Shown piece by piece: positions 20,702 through 40,046 of a stretch of 48,446 nt of DNA. The stretch lies in contig JAPPAV010000090.1 in the NCBI GenBank assembly GCA_026705345.1, forward strand, positions 1 through 48,446, written 5' to 3'. This stretch comes from Gammaproteobacteria bacterium. Lineage in GTDB: Bacteria; Pseudomonadota; Gammaproteobacteria; Pseudomonadales; Azotimanducaceae. How positions within the stretch are numbered: position 1 is the first letter of the stretch; each line of letters starts with the position of its first letter. The translations under genes were made by a program, and so were the position numbers. Under the pieces are notes generated by a model. The model was not told the DNA's origin, did no database searches, and saw only the letters and a list, made by a program, of their open reading frames with translations.

Positions 20702-22531
20702 CTAGCGATCCAAGCCGGCCGCCGCCCGGTATTGTTCGGCCCGTTCCTCGTCGTGGTCCTCGAAGTGCCCGGCAAGGACGTAGGCGGCGCGTGTTCTCGA
20801 CTCCGCGTCTTCGATCCGGGCGTACAGGTCTTCCGCGAGCGCCGCATCCGCAAGCGATGCGTCGTGCTCGACCAGCTGGACGATGGCGACCCGAGTGGCG
20901 GCGTCGCGTTCAGGTCCCGGCGGCACCTCGTCGATGAAGGCGACCGCTGCCGAGGGATCGACCGCCACCCACGCGGCGACGGGCGAAGACATCAGCGATA
21001 GGAACTCAGCTCCGGGTCCCAGCAGATAGCGGGCCGCGCGTTCCGGATCGGACTGGGACCAGCCGTGAAGGATTCCTTCCATGGCTTGGGTACGGGCCTG
21101 CGCGTCGCGTATGCCGGCGAACAGGTCCAGTGCAACGGTCGGCGAGTGGTTGGCGAGTGAATACATGAGAGGGCCGACCGACTGCCGGCGGGTCTCGACG
21201 CCTTGCGACCACAGCCAGGCGAAAGCGCCCCGTGCGTCCTGCCGTGCGAGGGGGTGGAGGACATGCGCGATGTGGCGCTCGCGAAGTTCATCGGGGGTCG
21301 TGTCGAGCCAAGAGGCGGCGGCCTGTGGGTCGTCGCCCGCCCACCGCACGAGCACGCCGCGCAGCGCGCGCCGCAGCGGTTCACCGGCGAGGTCCGAAGA
21401 CGCCAACCAGGTCGCGGCGGCTCCGGGATCCCGTCCCGCCCAGATCGATGACAGCTCCCAGTAGAGGGCCTCGGCGACTTCCGCGTCGTCGACCTCGGCG
21501 ACAGCCTTGATCGCCGCCTCTGGGTCGCGCCGAGCCCAGGCCAAGAGCGTGACGGCGATGACCCGCCGCTTGCCAGTGGCATCGAGGCCGGTGGCGAGTT
21601 GGAGTGCTTGGCGGGGCGAGGTCTGGGCGAGGAACTCCGCGGCCTCCGCCAGGAGTGTGTCGCGTTGGGGGGATGCCGGCTCGGCCAGCGCCCACGCGAT
21701 GGCAGCGTCCCGGTCCGCATCCATCCAGTGGCGCATCAGCGCCGTGCGCAAATATCTGGCAGTTGTCTGATCCGGCATCGCGGCAACTGCTGCCATCGCT
21801 GCGTGCGGGTCGCGGTCGATCCACTCGTTAGCGATCCGCCGAAGCACGGCGTTCTGTTCCTGTCCCGCCGACATCTGCGCCAGCGCATCTCGCCAAGCGA
21901 GGGCTGGATCCGAGCGCATGGTTGTCTCCGCACGCAGCCGGCCGAGGACCGGCTCGATGGAGAAACGCGCCGCGATTGCGCGTTGTTCGACGGTGGGAAG
22001 GTCGTCGCGGGCGATCAGCACGGCAATGGCGGCGTCTCGACGCTGCCGATCGGGCAACGTTTCCGCTTTGTCCAGGGCGCCGTCGTGGTCGATCTCCGCC
22101 CAGTGTTCCAAGACTGTTTGAACGTAGCGTTCCTGATCGGGCCCCCCGCGCGCCAGAACATCGGCCAACGCGCGTTCCGGGTCGAGTTCGACAAAGCGGG
22201 AGTAGATGATGGTCCTTGCTGCGGTGGCGTCGTGACTGCTCGGCAGTGTCCCGGCCTCGGCGAGCAGGCGTTCGAGCGACGGGATGTCGGCATCGGCTAG
22301 GAGTTCGTAGAGGGCTGCAGTCTGCCGGAAGTTGCCGGGCAGGCGCAGGGTATCGTCTAGCGTGGTTGCCACCGCAACATCCGTGTCGAGGCGTGCCGGC
22401 GCAGGCGAGTCCGGAGCGGTTGCCCGGACAGGTGGGGGCGCGTCGACGGGCAGAGTTACCCAGGCCAGAACCAGGCCGATAGCCACCCCTGCGGCCAGAC
22501 CTGCAAAGCCAATCAGTATCCGAGTCGCCAT
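20702..22531 (-). CDS. Membrane-anchored alpha-helical repeat protein
   Basis: A 609-residue protein with one N-terminal membrane anchor (about 4-26), a proline-rich linker and then about 14 degenerate helical repeats of 33-38 residues. The recurrent unit is W-x(2-4)-DP-x-AA-x(2)-W/A-x-A, for example WIDRDPHAAMAAVAAMP, WAGRDPGAAATWLAS, WAGDDPQAAASWLDT and WSQSDPERAARYLLG. This forms an alpha solenoid, probably in the periplasm, likely a protein-binding scaffold. I recognise no catalytic motif. It starts 13 bases after the stop of an acyl-CoA ligase gene on the same strand, so the two may form an operon. Confidence 0.75.
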   Translation of the reverse strand: MATRILIGFAGLAAGVAIGLVLAWVTLPVDAPPPVRATAPDSPAPARLDTDVAVATTLDDTLRLPGNFRQTAALYELLADADIPSLERLLAEAGTLPSSHDATAARTIIYSRFVELDPERALADVLARGGPDQERYVQTVLEHWAEIDHDGALDKAETLPDRQRRDAAIAVLIARDDLPTVEQRAIAARFSIEPVLGRLRAETTMRSDPALAWRDALAQMSAGQEQNAVLRRIANEWIDRDPHAAMAAVAAMPDQTTARYLRTALMRHWMDADRDAAIAWALAEPASPQRDTLLAEAAEFLAQTSPRQALQLATGLDATGKRRVIAVTLLAWARRDPEAAIKAVAEVDDAEVAEALYWELSSIWAGRDPGAAATWLASSDLAGEPLRRALRGVLVRWAGDDPQAAASWLDTTPDELRERHIAHVLHPLARQDARGAFAWLWSQGVETRRQSVGPLMYSLANHSPTVALDLFAGIRDAQARTQAMEGILHGWSQSDPERAARYLLGPGAEFLSLMSSPVAAWVAVDPSAAVAFIDEVPPGPERDAATRVAIVQLVEHDASLADAALAEDLYARIEDAESRTRAAYVLAGHFEDHDEERAEQYRAAAGLDR

Positions 22532-26017: not shown

Positions 26018-29000
26018 CTACCAAGTATCGACGTACGGGCGCTTCTTTCCCGTACGCGGCGGTACCGGCGGCAGGCACTTCATGCCGCTGGCGATGAATG
26101 CCCGGGTATCCGCCGGATCGATGACGTAGCGGGCGCCAGAGTTGATGGCCCGGGCCGACTCGTAGCCCTGGGCGACCCGCCGCTCGTAGGCGGCCTTGCG
26201 CTCCTCGGGATCCTCGATCGCCGCCAATTCCCGGCGGGCCGAGAGTTTCACGGCCCCGTCGATGTTCATGCCGGCGAACTCGGCGGTTGGCCATGCCACC
26301 GTAAGGAACGGGACGGAGGAGGCGCCGCCGATCATCGCCTGCACGCCGAGACCGTAGGCCTTGCGCACCATGATCCCGAACATCGGCGCGGTGCAGTTGG
26401 CGCCGATGTTGAAAAGCCGGACCGAGTGACGCACCAGCGCCGTCCGCTCGTGGTCCGGCCCCACCATGATTCCCGGACAGTCCATGAACACGACGACGGG
26501 GATATCGAAGGCGTCGCACAGTTGGAAGAACCTCGCACCCTTGTCCGCGCCGGGACTGTCCACCGCGCCGGCCAGGTGCGCGGAATTGTTGGCGACCACC
26601 CCCATCGGCTGGCCCTCGACGCGGATGAAGGCGGTGATGACGCCGATGCCGAACTCCTTGCGGATCTCGAGCACCGAACCCTCGTCGGCCAGCGTTTCGA
26701 TGATGTCGCGCATCTCGTAAGCCCGCACGCGGTTCTCCGGAATAATGTGTCGCATGCGGCGCTGATCCGGCGATTCCCAGTCGCAGACCGGCCCCTGGAA
26801 ATAGGACAGGTACTGCTTGACGGCACGGACCGCGGCCGCATCGTCCTCGACCACGATGTCGACGTCGCCGTTCTCCACCTGGAACGTCATCGAGCCCAGA
26901 TCCGCCGCGGTGTGGGAACCCATGCCGCTCGCTTCGACCACGGCCGGCCCGTTGCAGCCGATGGTCGAGTTCTCGGTGGCGATGATGACGTCGCAGCAGG
27001 CCAAGAGCGCGGCGTTCCCCGCGAAGCAGTCCCCGGTACTGACGCCGACCAGCGGCACCAGCCCGGAGAGCTTGGCGAAGTCCGTGAAGACGCTGGCGTC
27101 CATGCCGACGCCGCCGACATTGCCGTAGGGTTGTCCCTCGCCCTCCGAGAACAGCACGAGAGGCACGCGCCAGTCGTGTACCAGTTCGTGCACCTGTTCC
27201 TGGCGATAGTGGCCGTGGGTATAGGAGGCCACAGGGTAGTTGCTGTGCACGACGGCCACCCGAGCGCGTTCCTCGCCGAGCAGGTCGGCGTTGACGCTCC
27301 CGAATCCCATGATCGTGCCGCCGTCCACCGACCCGGCCGCCGGCGGGCCGAACTCCCGGAACGACCCGTTGTCCAGCAGGTCGTCGAGGTTCTCCCGGGC
27401 GGTGCGTCGGCCTTTCCCGTGCAGCGTGTCTACCGCGTCTGCGCGCGATACGTCGAGTGTTCTCTCGATCCAGTCGTTGACTTCCGTGAGGTCGCCGCGG
27501 ATCAGATCGAGGTCCATCCCGGCATCGGCGCCGATGGCACCGCCTTCGACTTCCGTCTCGTGGATGAACACGATTGGATAGCCCTCGCGTACGACATCGC
27601 CTTGCGCCATTGAGACGGCGCAGACGACGCCGTTGCGGTCGGCGCGGATGTCGTGCTGCAGCTTCATGGCCTCGACCACGGCGACCGCCTGGCCGACGCG
27701 GACCTCGTCGCCGACGGCTACGTCGATCCCGACGATGGTGCCCTGCATCGGCGCCACCAGTCCCACGGATCCCTCCGGGCCGACTGCCTGTTCCGCCTGT
27801 GTTGCGATGACCGCCTGTGGTTCGTACCCGGTAGGTGTGACGAATCGGCGCGGGTCGCTGGCGGCGGCGAGGCCCGCCATGTGCTCGTCGACGAACCGGG
27901 TGTGGACGTTGCCGGCGACGAAGTCGGGATGGCTCAGGATGGCCTGCAGGAAGGCGATGTTGGTCTCGACCCCCTCGATGCGGAACTCGCTGAGCGCGCG
28001 CGAGGTCCGCGCCACGGCGTCGGAAAAGTCGTTCGACGGCGAATGCCCGACCACCTTGGCGAGCAGCGAGTCGAAGGCGAGGCTGGTCTCGTAGCCGGCG
28101 TAGCCGAAGCCGTCGGTGCGCACGCCCGGCCCGCTCGGCGCCTCGTAGGCGAGAAGCGTGCCGGCAGCCGGCAGAATGGCGCCGTCGGCGCGCACCGTCT
28201 CCATGCACACCCGGGCCTGCACCGCATAGCCGCGCGTGTCGATCTTGTCGAGGCCAAGCTCCGCGATCGTCGCGCCCCGGGCCAGCTGCAGCTGCGCCCG
28301 GACGATGTCTACCCCCGTGACCTCCTCGGTCACGGTGTGTTCGACCTGCAGCCGCGCGTTCGTCTCGATGAAGGCGAACGACGCCTCGCCGGAGACGTCG
28401 AGGAGGAACTCGAACGTCCCGGCATTGCGGTAGCCGACGCTGCCGGCGAACCGCACCGCGGCGTCGACAATCGCCTCGCGCAGTTCGTCCGCGAGCCCGG
28501 GCGCCGGCGCCACCTCGACGATCTTTTGGGAGTGCCGCTGGACGCTGCACTCGCGCTCGCCGAGATGGGCGATGGCGCCCTCGGCGTCGCCGAGGATCTG
28601 CACCTCGACGTGGCGCGCCCGCCCGATGAACTCCTCGACGTAGAGGTCGCCGTTGCCGAACGCGGCCAGCGCCTCCGCCCGGCAGCGCTCGTAGGTCGCC
28701 GCCACCTCGCCGGCGTGGGCGACCCGGCGCGAGCCGCGGCCGCCGCCGCCGCCCACCGCCTTGATCATCATGCCGCGGCCCTCGCCAAGGACGTCGAAGA
28801 ACGCCGCCGCCTCGTCGACGGACACGGGATGGTCGATGCCGCGGATGACCGGCACCCCGTTGTCGGCCGCCGCGGCCCGGGCCCGCGTCTTGTCGCCGAA
28901 CAGCTCGAGGGTCTCGATGCGCGGTCCGACGAAGGTCACCCCCGCCGCGGCAGAGCGCCGGGCGAGTTCGGCGTTCTCCGCCAGGAAGCCGTAGCCGGGA

Positions 29001-29227
29001 TGCAGCGCGTCGCAGCCGGTGTCCACGGCGGCCGCGACGATCTGGTCGATGTCGAGGTACGCCGCCGCGCCGATGCCGTCGAGGGTCACCGCCTCGTCGG
29101 CCTTGCCGCTGTGCAGCGAGCCGGCGTCGTCCGCCGGCGCCACCGCCACCGTCGGCACGCCGAGTTCCGCCGCCGCCCGCATGATGCGGATGGCGATCTC
29201 GCCTCGGTTCGCCACCAAGAGCTTCAC
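26018..29227 (-). CDS. Single-chain acyl-CoA carboxylase (BC-BCCP-CT), canonical biotin site
   Basis: A 1069-residue enzyme with all acetyl/propionyl-type carboxylase parts in one chain: biotin carboxylase (about 1-450; KAVGGGGGRGSRRV, HVEVQIL, ETNARLQVEHTVTEEVTG), biotin carrier (about 490-560) with the canonical AMKL motif at Lys522, and carboxyltransferase (about 590-1069; LSGLVPLVGVSTG, NSTIGCNGP, FMDCPGIMVGPDHE). This is the layout of the long-chain acyl-CoA carboxylase (LCC) described from mycobacteria, which carboxylates acyl-CoAs from short to long chain. The GTG at 29227 with GGAGA upstream is the likely start; the frame continues through repeats to 29338. It follows a paralogue on the same strand. 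Confidence 0.9.
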   Translation of the reverse strand: MKLLVANRGEIAIRIMRAAAELGVPTVAVAPADDAGSLHSGKADEAVTLDGIGAAAYLDIDQIVAAAVDTGCDALHPGYGFLAENAELARRSAAAGVTFVGPRIETLELFGDKTRARAAAADNGVPVIRGIDHPVSVDEAAAFFDVLGEGRGMMIKAVGGGGGRGSRRVAHAGEVAATYERCRAEALAAFGNGDLYVEEFIGRARHVEVQILGDAEGAIAHLGERECSVQRHSQKIVEVAPAPGLADELREAIVDAAVRFAGSVGYRNAGTFEFLLDVSGEASFAFIETNARLQVEHTVTEEVTGVDIVRAQLQLARGATIAELGLDKIDTRGYAVQARVCMETVRADGAILPAAGTLLAYEAPSGPGVRTDGFGYAGYETSLAFDSLLAKVVGHSPSNDFSDAVARTSRALSEFRIEGVETNIAFLQAILSHPDFVAGNVHTRFVDEHMAGLAAASDPRRFVTPTGYEPQAVIATQAEQAVGPEGSVGLVAPMQGTIVGIDVAVGDEVRVGQAVAVVEAMKLQHDIRADRNGVVCAVSMAQGDVVREGYPIVFIHETEVEGGAIGADAGMDLDLIRGDLTEVNDWIERTLDVSRADAVDTLHGKGRRTARENLDDLLDNGSFREFGPPAAGSVDGGTIMGFGSVNADLLGEERARVAVVHSNYPVASYTHGHYRQEQVHELVHDWRVPLVLFSEGEGQPYGNVGGVGMDASVFTDFAKLSGLVPLVGVSTGDCFAGNAALLACCDVIIATENSTIGCNGPAVVEASGMGSHTAADLGSMTFQVENGDVDIVVEDDAAAVRAVKQYLSYFQGPVCDWESPDQRRMRHIIPENRVRAYEMRDIIETLADEGSVLEIRKEFGIGVITAFIRVEGQPMGVVANNSAHLAGAVDSPGADKGARFFQLCDAFDIPVVVFMDCPGIMVGPDHERTALVRHSVRLFNIGANCTAPMFGIMVRKAYGLGVQAMIGGASSVPFLTVAWPTAEFAGMNIDGAVKLSARRELAAIEDPEERKAAYERRVAQGYESARAINSGARYVIDPADTRAFIASGMKCLPPVPPRTGKKRPYVDTW

Positions 29228-29392: not shown

Positions 29393-32300
29393 CTACCAGG
29401 TATCCACGTTGGGTCGTTTCTTTTGGGTACGCGGCGCGGGTTTCGGGATGCTCTCGAGCCCTTGCGCGATCCAGGCGCGGGTGTCCGCGGGATCGATGAC
29501 ATCGTCGATGCCGTAGTTGGTGCCGCCGGAGTTGACGGCGCTCGCCCGCTCCACGTGGGCATCGATCAGACGTTCGTAGATGGCCTGCCGCTCGTCCTCG
29601 TCGTCGACGGCATGAAGCTCCTCGCCGAACATCAACCTGACCCGGCCGTCGATGGTCATGTCCGCGAACTCGGCGCTGGGCCAGGCAACGGTGAAGAACG
29701 GTTCCAGCGAGCTGCCGCCGCACATGGCGCGGACTCCCATGCCGTAGGCCTTCCGTATCACCACGCCGAACATCGGCGTGGTCATGTTGGCGCCGGTGAC
29801 GAACAGCCGGCCGCAGTGCCGGAGCAGCGCGGTGCGTTCGTATTCCGGGCCGGGCGCGATGCCGGGACAGTCCATCAGCGACAGCACGGGGATGTCGAAG
29901 GTGTCGCAGAGCTGGAGGAAGCGGGCACCCTTGTCCGCGGCATCGCTGTCGATGGCGCCGGACAGGTGCTTCGGGTTGTTCGCGATCAGTCCTAGGGGTT
30001 TGCCTTCGATGCGGATGAAGGCCGTGATGATGCCCACCCCGAAGGCTTCGCGGATCTCGAGGATGGAGTCCTTGTCCACGAGCGTTTCGATGACTTCGCG
30101 CATGTCGTAGAGCTCGTTTCGGTCCTCCGGGACGATGCTGCGAAGGCGGCGTTGATCGGGCGCGTTCCAGTGCTGGACCGGACCTTGGAAGTAGGACAGG
30201 TATTTCTTCGTGGCATCGATTGCTGTCTCGTCATCCTTGACGAGGATGTCGACCACGCCGTTGGGCACCTGGAACGACATCGGGCCGACTTCCTCGGGCG
30301 TATAGATGCCGAGGCCTCCGCCCTCGATCATGGCGGGTCCGCCGAGGCCGATGGTGGAGTTCTCCGCAGCGATGATGACGTCGCAGGACGCCAGCATGAC
30401 CGTGTTGCCCGCGAAGCAGCGCCCCGAATTCACGCCGACCAGGGGGACGAGACCGCTGAGTTCGCAGAGTTTCGTGAACGTGTAGGAGTCCACGGGAACC
30501 CCGCCGCCACCGCGTCCGGCCACGTCCACCGAGCCGGCCCGGGACCGCGGAGGGGCGTCCCCGGGGTTGCGAAGTCCGGCCTCAACGGCAATGTCCCTGG
30601 CCTCGGCCCGCTCGCCGCCGCTGATGCCGGGCCGGCCGCCGCCGCCCTCGGCGAACAGCACCAGGGGCAGCCGATATCGCCCGGCGAGTTCGTAGATCCG
30701 ATCTTGCTTGTAGTGCCCTCGGCCACCTTGGGTGCCGGCCACGACCATGTAGTCGTAGTGGACGGCGACGGCGCGTGACCGATCCGCTTCGAACAGATCC
30801 CCGTTGATATGGCCGATGCCCATGACGAGGCCGTCGGCCTGGGTGGTCTCCCGGAGCCATTGCTGCTTCTGCCAGCTTGCCGCGGTCACTAGGGGTCCGT
30901 ATTCCCGGAACGTGCCGTCCATCAAGTGCTCGATGTTCTGCCGCGGGCTGCGTTGCTGTTTCGCATGCCTTCTGGCGATCTTCTCGGACCGGAAGTCGTC
31001 CTCGATGTAGGCACGCCGCTCGTCGACCTGCGCAAGGTCGCTTCGGCGGGCGTCGAGATCCGTTTCGGCGGCGGGTTCGGCCCAGTTGCCCTCGACCCCC
31101 GATTCGCTGATCAGGACCAGCGGGTCGCCGACGCGGACCCGGTCACCGGATGTGACGAAGACCGCATCGACCGTGCTGCCCTGTTCCGCGCGCACGACGT
31201 GATCGAGTTCCAGCGAATTGATCGTAACCATGGGTTGGCCCGCGAGCACCTCGTCGCCTTCGGCGACGTCGACGGACATGACCGCGCCGGGAACAGAGGC
31301 CGGCAGCGTGAACGGTCCGGTCGGCTCGGGCTTGTCCTGCTCGGCTTCCTGTGACTTCACCTGGGTGTCGTGCTTGAAGAGAGCGAGTGGGTCTTGGGCA
31401 TCCTCGACCCGTGCACCGGCATAGCCATCCTCGGTTCTCGCCGAATCGTGGCCCGCTGGCGTGACGAACCGGCGTTGGTCGCCGGCGGCGGCGAGGTCGG
31501 CCATGTGTTCGTCGACGAACCGGGTGTGCACCTTGCCGGCGGCGAAGTCGGGATGGCCTAGGATGGCCTGCAGCAAGGCGATGTTGGTCTCGACGCCCTC
31601 GATGCGGAACTCGCTGAGCGCGCGCGAGGTCCGCCCGACGGCATCTGTGAAGTCGTCCGACGGCGAATGCCCGACCACCTTGGCGAGCAGCGAGTCGAAG
31701 GAAAGGCTGGTCTCGTAGCCGGCGTAGCCGAAGCCGTCGGTGCGCACACCCGGCCCGCTCGGCGCCTCGTAGGCGAGGAGCGTGCCGGCAGAGGGCAGGA
31801 TGGTGCCGTCCCCGCGCACCGTCTCCATGCACACCCGGGCCTGAACCGCATAGCCGCGCGTGTCGATCTTGTCGAGCCCGAGTTCCGCAATCGTCGCGCC
31901 CCGGGCCAGCTTCAGCTGCGCCTGCACGATGTCCACGCCGGTTACTTCCTCCGTCACGGTGTGCTCGACCTGCAGCCGCGCGTTGGTCTCGATGAACGCG
32001 AACGACCCGTTCCCCGCCTCGCCGGAGACGTCGAGGAGGAACTCGAACGTGCCGGCGTTGCGGTAGCCGACACTGCCGGCGAACCGCACCGCGGCGTCGA
32101 CGATCGCCTCGCGCAGTTCGTCCGCGAGCCCGGGCGCCGGCGCCACCTCGACGATCTTCTGAAAGTGCCGCTGCACGCTGCACTCGCGCTCGCCGAGGTG
32201 GGCGATGCCGCCCGCGGCGTCCCCGAGGATCTGCACCTCCACGTGCCGCGCCCGCCCGATGAACTCCTCCACGTACAGATCGCCGTTGCCGAACGCGGCC

Positions 32301-32860
32301 AGCGCCTCGGCCCGGCAGCGCTCGTAGGTCGCCGCCACCTCGTCGGCGTGGGCCACCCGGCGCGAGCCGCGGCCCCCGCCGCCGCCCACCGCCTTGACCA
32401 TCATGCCTCGGCCGTCGGTTAGGGAATCGAGGAACGCCGCCGCCTCGTCCACGGACACCGGATGGTCGATGCCGCGGATCACCGGCACGCCCGTGTCGGC
32501 TGCCGCCGCGCGGGCCCGCGCCTTGTCGCCGAACAGCTCGAGGGTCTCCACGCACGGACCCACGAAGGTCACCCCGGCCGCGGCAGAGCGCCGGGCGAGT
32601 TCGGCGTTCTCCGCCAGGAAGCCGTAGCCGGGATGCAGCGCGTCGCAGCCGGTGTCCACGGCGGCCGCGACGATCTGGTCGATGTCGAGGTACGCCGCCG
32701 CGCCGGTGCCGTCGAGTGTCACCGCCTCGTCCGCCTTGCCGGTGTGCAGCGAGCCGGCGTCGTCCGCCGGCGCCACCGCCACCGTGGGCACGCCGAGCTC
32801 CGCTGCGGCCCGCATGATGCGGATCGCGATCTCGCCGCGGTTCGCCACCAGGAGTTTCAT
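29393..32860 (-). CDS. Single-chain acyl-CoA carboxylase paralogue lacking the biotinyl lysine
   Basis: A 1155-residue paralogue of the next gene with the same BC-BCCP-CT order. The biotin carboxylase half is about 93% identical to its neighbour by my count (33 differences and a 3-residue insert in about 475). In the carrier domain the motif reads TINSLELDHVV where the neighbour has VVEAMKLQHDI: residue 551 is Glu (codon GAA, 31208-31210) in place of the biotin-carrying Lys. The CT part (LVGVNSGRCFAGN, MDCPGIAPGPEYE) is complete but has an in-frame insert of about 36 residues near 30505-30628. It may work with the carrier of the paralogue, or be altered in function. The ATG at 32860 starts at the same residue as the family. 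Confidence 0.9.
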   Translation of the reverse strand: MKLLVANRGEIAIRIMRAAAELGVPTVAVAPADDAGSLHTGKADEAVTLDGTGAAAYLDIDQIVAAAVDTGCDALHPGYGFLAENAELARRSAAAGVTFVGPCVETLELFGDKARARAAAADTGVPVIRGIDHPVSVDEAAAFLDSLTDGRGMMVKAVGGGGGRGSRRVAHADEVAATYERCRAEALAAFGNGDLYVEEFIGRARHVEVQILGDAAGGIAHLGERECSVQRHFQKIVEVAPAPGLADELREAIVDAAVRFAGSVGYRNAGTFEFLLDVSGEAGNGSFAFIETNARLQVEHTVTEEVTGVDIVQAQLKLARGATIAELGLDKIDTRGYAVQARVCMETVRGDGTILPSAGTLLAYEAPSGPGVRTDGFGYAGYETSLSFDSLLAKVVGHSPSDDFTDAVGRTSRALSEFRIEGVETNIALLQAILGHPDFAAGKVHTRFVDEHMADLAAAGDQRRFVTPAGHDSARTEDGYAGARVEDAQDPLALFKHDTQVKSQEAEQDKPEPTGPFTLPASVPGAVMSVDVAEGDEVLAGQPMVTINSLELDHVVRAEQGSTVDAVFVTSGDRVRVGDPLVLISESGVEGNWAEPAAETDLDARRSDLAQVDERRAYIEDDFRSEKIARRHAKQQRSPRQNIEHLMDGTFREYGPLVTAASWQKQQWLRETTQADGLVMGIGHINGDLFEADRSRAVAVHYDYMVVAGTQGGRGHYKQDRIYELAGRYRLPLVLFAEGGGGRPGISGGERAEARDIAVEAGLRNPGDAPPRSRAGSVDVAGRGGGGVPVDSYTFTKLCELSGLVPLVGVNSGRCFAGNTVMLASCDVIIAAENSTIGLGGPAMIEGGGLGIYTPEEVGPMSFQVPNGVVDILVKDDETAIDATKKYLSYFQGPVQHWNAPDQRRLRSIVPEDRNELYDMREVIETLVDKDSILEIREAFGVGIITAFIRIEGKPLGLIANNPKHLSGAIDSDAADKGARFLQLCDTFDIPVLSLMDCPGIAPGPEYERTALLRHCGRLFVTGANMTTPMFGVVIRKAYGMGVRAMCGGSSLEPFFTVAWPSAEFADMTIDGRVRLMFGEELHAVDDEDERQAIYERLIDAHVERASAVNSGGTNYGIDDVIDPADTRAWIAQGLESIPKPAPRTQKKRPNVDTW

Positions 32861-37117: not shown

Positions 37118-40046
<2,929 letters not shown>

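Follow-up and report, generated by a model that had tools for sequence, protein, structure and literature searches.

The window, by which we mean the whole analyzed stretch of 48,446 nucleotides, holds two adjoining genes on the same strand that both encode single-chain acyl-CoA carboxylases of the LCC type, here called chains E and K. Chain E has lost the lysine to which biotin is attached; chain K retains it and has an altered N-terminal half of the carboxyltransferase (CT) domain. The constraint on E and K is reciprocal, in a checkerboard-like manner across the carrier domain and the two CT halves. As E has no biotin site and K an altered CT N-half, the two chains probably work together, and we consider it reasonably probable that the biotin of K serves a CT site using the N-half of E in a mixed complex.

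Gene pair and domain architecture

According to Pfam, both chains have the domain order biotin carboxylase (BC), biotinyl carrier and CT in one polypeptide (Table 1). The solved LCC 4RCN has the same order in a single chain, and both chains resemble it over their full length (9e-275 for E and 1.3e-255 for K); it is also the best fold match of the AlphaFold2 model of chain E. LCCs are described as homohexamers, with a domain order given as CT first (PMC6491548), contrary to the alignment with 4RCN, which puts BC first. Chain K counts 1069 amino acids from a GTG at 29227, and an upstream TTG start is possible.

The CT N-half of chain E contains an insert of around 40 residues directly after EGGGGRPGISGGE (window 30503-30625), the sequence of which is variable. 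Some insert occurs at this position (residues 746-786) in six of 22 other aligned copies. A frameshift behind these residues was considered and discarded, as the stretch recurs as an in-frame insert in orthologues, shorter in one of them (G035).

Table 1. Features of the two carboxylase genes, with positions in the window.
Feature	Position	Strand	Basis
Chain E, LCC-type acyl-CoA carboxylase, 1155 aa, carrier without Lys	29393..32860	-	ORF, Pfam, 4RCN alignment
E BC domain (residues 1-451), with few of the family-invariant residues missing	31508..32860	-	Pfam, alignment
E linker; residues 480-495 include the family motif DPLA, which chain K has lost	31376..31423	-	alignment
E biotinyl carrier domain, residues 518-585; still recognized, fast evolving	31106..31309	-	Pfam, rates
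Glu551 codon GAA at the biotinyl-lysine position of chain E	31208..31210	-	
E CT N-half, residues 632-905; GTQGG, EGGGGRPG, GGPAMIEGGGLG and PEEVGP intact; slow evolving	30146..30967	-	
Long insert within the CT N-half of E (about residues 746-786); K has none	30503..30625	-	alignment
E CT C-half, residues 906-1155; faster evolving than that of K, e.g., RKAYGMGVRAM	29396..30145	-	
Chain K, paralogous single-chain carboxylase, carrier with Lys, CT N-half altered	26018..29227	-	
K BC domain	27884..29227	-	94% protein identity to BC of E
K Lys522 codon in EAMKLQH (predicted biotin attachment)	27662..27664	-	
K CT N-half: EGEGQP for EGGGGR, NGPAVVEASGMG for GGPAMIEGGGLG, AADLGS for PEEVGP	26756..27415	-	alignment
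K CT C-half; slowest part compared, tree length 0.94	26021..26755	-	

Loss of the biotinyl-lysine in chain E

The earlier note had reported a glutamate in chain E facing the biotinylated lysine of its neighbor, and this is confirmed: on the minus strand the codon 31210-31208 is GAA, residue 551 of the 1155-aa ORF, and the two carriers align as NSLELDH in E and EAMKLQH in K, the latter with Lys522 (27662-27664). The biotinylatable lysine (AMKM type) of LCCs is present in K and missing from E. A second motif of this type, which would have spoken against the loss, was not found in chain E, where strings matching [ML]K[MLI] occur only at residues 1 and 316, the latter inside the BC domain.

The glutamate could have been unique to this genome or shared by a clade. 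Our working alignment comprises 62 chains (17 E, 26 K and 19 other LCC), for which E orthologues were drawn from searches of the genus and the family and from a named genome collection. The loss of the lysine turned out to be a clade feature. It is absent from all 17 E orthologues, with Glu (n = 14), Gly (n = 2) or Asp (n = 1) in its column and an acidic residue at the carrier tip in 15 of them, and it is kept in all 26 K chains and all 19 other LCC chains. In a second set of 107 distinct copies, whose taxa overlap those of the working alignment, the lysine is absent in 16, present in 90 and not covered in one. Every E orthologue with a readable carrier lacks it. A sequencing error or an oddity of a single genome is ruled out, since Lys-less orthologues come from other assemblies. 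No further loss was seen among the copies aligned, which for the class and the phylum (samples of 369 and 398 genomes) were drawn from at most 30 loci per search; rare losses may occur elsewhere in these groups.

The carrier of E is nonetheless still recognizable as a domain. It matches the Pfam biotinyl/lipoyl domain PF00364 at residues 525-584 (E-value 4.3e-7, compared to 7.3e-14 for chain K), and three further E chains are recognized as well, with that of G003 just below the curated cut-off. In the AlphaFold2 models the carrier strands of E follow the same order as those of K, with Glu551 at the hairpin tip (residues 550-552, pLDDT <50). Both single-chain models were built from 30 similar sequences and are of moderate quality (mean pLDDT 66.7 and 77.4), so only strand patterns were taken from them.

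All 17 E loci of the named collection are from metagenome-assembled genomes, 15 labeled Gammaproteobacteria or Pseudomonadales and two Chloroflexi. Of the Chloroflexi-labeled contigs (L093 and L094), L093 also carries K; mis-binning or horizontal transfer may explain them. The SAT2910 assembly (L096 and L097; see also L162 and L163) contains two E/K pairs, one of which has K first and a Gly at the lysine column.

An altered CT N-half in chain K

The BC and CT parts of chain E had been judged complete, which holds for its BC domain and CT N-half. The accompanying view of the neighbor as a normal copy does not hold, as the CT N-half of chain K lacks family-invariant residues. The motifs GTQGG, EGGGGRPG, GGPAMIEGGGLG and PEEVGP are kept by E and the other aligned LCC copies and changed in K. 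In the working alignment, all 17 E chains and all 19 other LCC chains have EGGGGR, and none of the 26 K chains does; in terms of the CT N-half motifs that are invariant in the family (EGGGGR, GGPAMIEGGGLG), E is a regular LCC and K is not. The linker motif DPLA, too, is kept by E and lost by K. In the second set (n = 107), 16 copies lack the lysine and have EGGGGR, 22 have the lysine and an altered motif, 67 have both and two are partly covered. No copy lacks both.

The same contrast appears when all columns that are invariant in 21 other copies are scored for deviating cells, with gaps ignored and one distant copy (L005) excluded. In the CT N-half, 41 of 603 cells deviate in E and 287 of 878 in K; in the CT C-half, the counts are 83 of 603 for E and 56 of 869 for K. 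Both BC domains are little affected (20/963 in E; 39/956 in K), and twelve BC positions that we take to be catalytic from E. coli biotin carboxylase are identical in E, K and an ordinary copy. Of the CT N-half columns that are invariant in the other copies, 23 are changed in half or more of the K members, two of them also in E.

The altered residues are conserved among K chains, including those of G181 and G091, two genomes in which E was not found, and near-pair dN/dS for the CT N-half is 0.03-0.22 in K (0.01-0.07 in E). Given this purifying selection and conservation, the CT N-half of K may have another activity. In four CT proteins outside the LCC type, the Gly740 column holds Thr, Thr, Gly and Ala, so a changed motif does not have to make the site inactive.

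Reciprocal substitution rates

Tree lengths were determined on a fixed tree over 16 E/K pairs, with 40 site bootstraps; ranges extend from the second-lowest to the second-highest value. The carrier has a tree length of 6.78 in E and 1.29 in K (E/K 5.3; 3.9-7.3). In the CT N-half the order is reversed, with 1.45 for E and 2.75 for K (K/E 1.9; 1.4-2.3), and in the CT C-half it is E again that evolves faster (2.33 compared to 0.94; E/K 2.5, 2.0-3.2). The interaction between CT half and chain is 4.7 (3.4-6.5). All 16 pairwise comparisons agree in direction for the carrier and both CT halves; within the N-half, the sub-part of residues 790-905 runs in the opposite direction in one of the 16.

Seven branch-disjoint comparisons, chosen only after the 16 had been seen, agree in direction as well (7/7 for carrier, N-half and C-half). 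Their pooled amino acid differences are 189/472 in E and 43/475 in K for the carrier, 164/1903 and 277/1563 for the CT N-half, and 274/1745 and 98/1692 for the CT C-half. dS is saturated in several of the 16 comparisons, for which amino acid differences were used as well. The CT C-half of E, though relaxed, is still under constraint as judged by dN/dS. Ordinary LCC copies serve as a reference: their halves evolve equally (N/C ratio of 1.03 in seven comparisons), compared to a ratio of 0.55 for E and 3.05 for K. Dividing carrier by C-half gives 1.9 for ordinary copies, 2.5 for E and 1.6 for K; the signal of the E carrier is thus clear relative to K and modest relative to ordinary copies.

Homogenization of the BC domains

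As read from DNA identities and trees, the BC domains are homogenized within many genomes and the CT parts are kept apart. In the window, the BC domains of E and K share 87-96% DNA identity per 50-codon bin and 94% at the protein level. Over the first 450 codons, E and K of the same genome are 99-100% identical in DNA in seven of 14 pairs and 91-100% identical in G015, a pair from a three-contig genome. After codon 500, identity falls to 42-78% in these homogenized pairs (the seven, G015 and the window). In G009 the DNA identity is 73-86%, and three deep pairs are not converted; L093, with its truncated E, stood outside this judgment. The identities of 99-100% may in part be an artefact of assembly or repeat consensus. 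That G015 and the window are mosaics speaks for a real homogenization.

The trees give a matching picture, as far as branching order is concerned (support values were not inspected). In the CT tree, sequences group by chain: the E clade is sister to the K clade, and the branching of one largely mirrors that of the other. In the BC tree, nine of 13 pairs have E and K of the same genome as sisters; the window pair falls in one tight cluster with its close relatives, and the three deep pairs stand apart.

Distribution of E and K

Among 206 genomes of the family, E occurs in 16 (15 by search and, in G068, a fragment at the end of a contig), spread over five genera and including deep branches, and none of the 16 E matches of this search contains an internal stop. 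K was found in 25 family genomes. Fifteen of the 16 E genomes also have K, 13 on the same contig and two on another contig; in the remaining one (G221), the contig stops within the BC domain of the following gene.

The reverse does not hold: in 10 of the 25 K genomes, searches to 1e-20, also elsewhere in the genome, did not find E. In three of these (G181, G091 and G010, the last only 74% complete), the flank upstream of K is intact and is not E, which shows that K can exist without E. In the other seven, the contig begins inside K, between residues 12 and 506 and in four cases at 427-461, close to where the BC repeat ends. The same break is seen in G002 and G003, where E sits on another contig. 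A lost E is possible in all seven. E thus appears to need K, and K is not always accompanied by E. In G181 and G091, the C-half of K diverges more from other K chains than in the three paired copies compared, and their BC domain falls inside the E/K cluster of the BC tree, which is weakly consistent with E having been lost later. Nine of the 10 K genomes in which E was not found contain one or more LCC copies with both the lysine and EGGGGR (none was seen for G078), and K may there have another partner, such as an intact LCC chain, or another function.

A conserved operon with a neighboring CoA ligase was considered and rejected, the window and its sister RHO3 being the only loci to have a flanking family in common; this comparison covers the seven of 14 loci with clear flanks. 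K-type chains with a non-E upstream flank are located at L152:2438-5734, L153:4013-7348 and L210:3-1970.

A proposed mixed complex of E and K

The earlier note had proposed that E might borrow the carrier of its neighbor. This is probably correct as far as it goes and fits the presence of K in 15 of 16 E genomes, yet it is incomplete: the opposite loss in the CT domain of K had gone unseen, as had the homogenized BC domains and the reciprocal constraint. We suggest that a single duplication of an LCC-type carboxylase gene of the single-chain kind gave rise to E and K, that the two form a co-evolving pair, and that chain E acts in a mixed oligomer with chain K. Biotin would be carried by K only and used by E as well. 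It would be carboxylated by the BC domains, which are retained in both chains and presumably kept alike by gene conversion, and the carboxyl group would then be passed on at a CT site using the intact N-half of E, with an acyl-CoA as the likely substrate. CT domains dimerize head to tail, and both protomers contribute to the sites (PMC4833862). An E:K dimer would consequently have one good site, composed of the N-half of E and the C-half of K, and one poor or dead site, composed of the N-half of K and the C-half of E. The reciprocal rate pattern is as expected of such a dimer with one live site. The half-site geometry, the assembly, the biotinylation of K, the low activity of its N-half and the acyl-CoA substrate are what we infer from the sequences.

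A stricter version, which we put forward only tentatively, holds that two copies with complementary losses build one carboxylase with a single live CT site per dimer. K would supply biotin and the CT C-half and E the CT N-half, and gene conversion would equalize the shared BC domain as the complementary halves stay distinct. Mutual need of this kind is at odds with the 10 of 25 K genomes in which E was not found, including the three in which the flank upstream of K is intact. Where E is missing, K would have to act otherwise, possibly together with a different intact LCC chain.

These same genomes suit a different explanation, in which both chains have working CT sites for different acyl-CoA substrates, with K self-sufficient despite its changed CT N-half and E riding on the biotin of K in a mixed oligomer, which would add a second substrate. 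The conserved altered residues of K, in G181 and G091 as well, and the dN/dS of its N-half agree with it, and a mixed CT core has been suggested in mycobacteria (PMC4347857). We regard it as rather unlikely: 23 otherwise invariant N-half columns are changed in at least half of the K chains (two also in E), the N-half of K evolves 1.9 times faster than that of E, and the relaxed C-half of E against that of K, the slowest part of all, is left unexplained.

E may instead serve in regulation or assembly, with its non-biotinylated carrier tuning K or acting as its scaffold, comparable to the plant BADC proteins, which lack the biotinylation motif and are proposed to aid assembly or inhibit (PMC11926652). 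That the carrier domain is kept without its lysine, with an acidic tip residue in 15 of 17 chains, would suit such a role. E, however, retains the motifs of its CT N-half, and its BC domain lacks few of the invariant residues. Its CT N-half is also slow to change and its carrier changes fastest, which makes a purely regulatory role improbable. A biotin-independent activity, as a decarboxylase or as a carboxylase without tethered biotin, is very improbable: biotin-independent malonate decarboxylase likewise has the CT fold (a weak NCBIfam match), but E keeps a BC domain homogenized with that of K and stays beside a biotin-type partner. Finally, E is hardly a decaying duplicate heading for loss; the missing lysine, the fast carrier and its absence from the search results of many K-bearing relatives could be read so, but its 16 matches are free of internal stops, its CT N-half has a dN/dS of 0.01-0.07 in near pairs, and it persists in five genera and in deep branches.

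Comparison with known carboxylases

Plant BADC proteins are separate, noncatalytic subunits that have neither a BC nor a CT domain. Chain E does have both domains (Pfam), is full-length with an intact CT N-half, and has a partner with the opposite loss. The resemblance, an analogy only, lies in its being a carrier-domain paralogue without the biotinylation lysine; in the heteromeric acetyl-CoA carboxylase of plants, such paralogues without the motif bind in the complex (PMC11926652). In the mycobacterial system of AccA3 with AccD4/AccD5 and AccE, one biotinylated alpha subunit serves several CT paralogues and a mixed complex has been suggested (PMC4347857). There, alpha and beta are separate, and we found no full-length chain with a Lys-less carrier described. 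The acetyl-CoA carboxylase of Chloroflexus aurantiacus has the BC paralogues BC1 and BC2, with a fused biotin carrier in BC1 only (PMC11077971); BC2 lacks the carrier domain altogether, in contrast to E, which retains the domain without its lysine. In 4RCN, EAMKMQH and EGGGGRPG occur in one chain, and here they are split over E and K. In the open-access literature, we found neither two full-length single-chain carboxylases with complementary losses nor a bacterial non-biotinylated carboxylase paralogue.

If the proposed complex exists, E and K would be a natural example of two full-length multidomain enzymes with reciprocal losses, which the substitution rates resolve to the level of half-domains, and gene conversion would act only on the BC domain that they share. 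The pattern would predict which CT halves lie opposite one another in the dimer, and E would be a bacterial counterpart of the plant BADC proteins. Such pairs would also risk being annotated as two independent acyl-CoA carboxylases though they make one.

Other open reading frames and LCC-like copies

The window includes two further long minus-strand ORFs without a Pfam match at 1e-8, at 20705-22531 (609 aa; repetitive-looking by eye) and 38262-40046 (595 aa). The genome to which the window belongs (G000; contigs C8, C71, C4 and C115) encodes at least five LCC-like chains including the E/K pair, and the remaining copies are 61, 51 and 39% identical to chain E.
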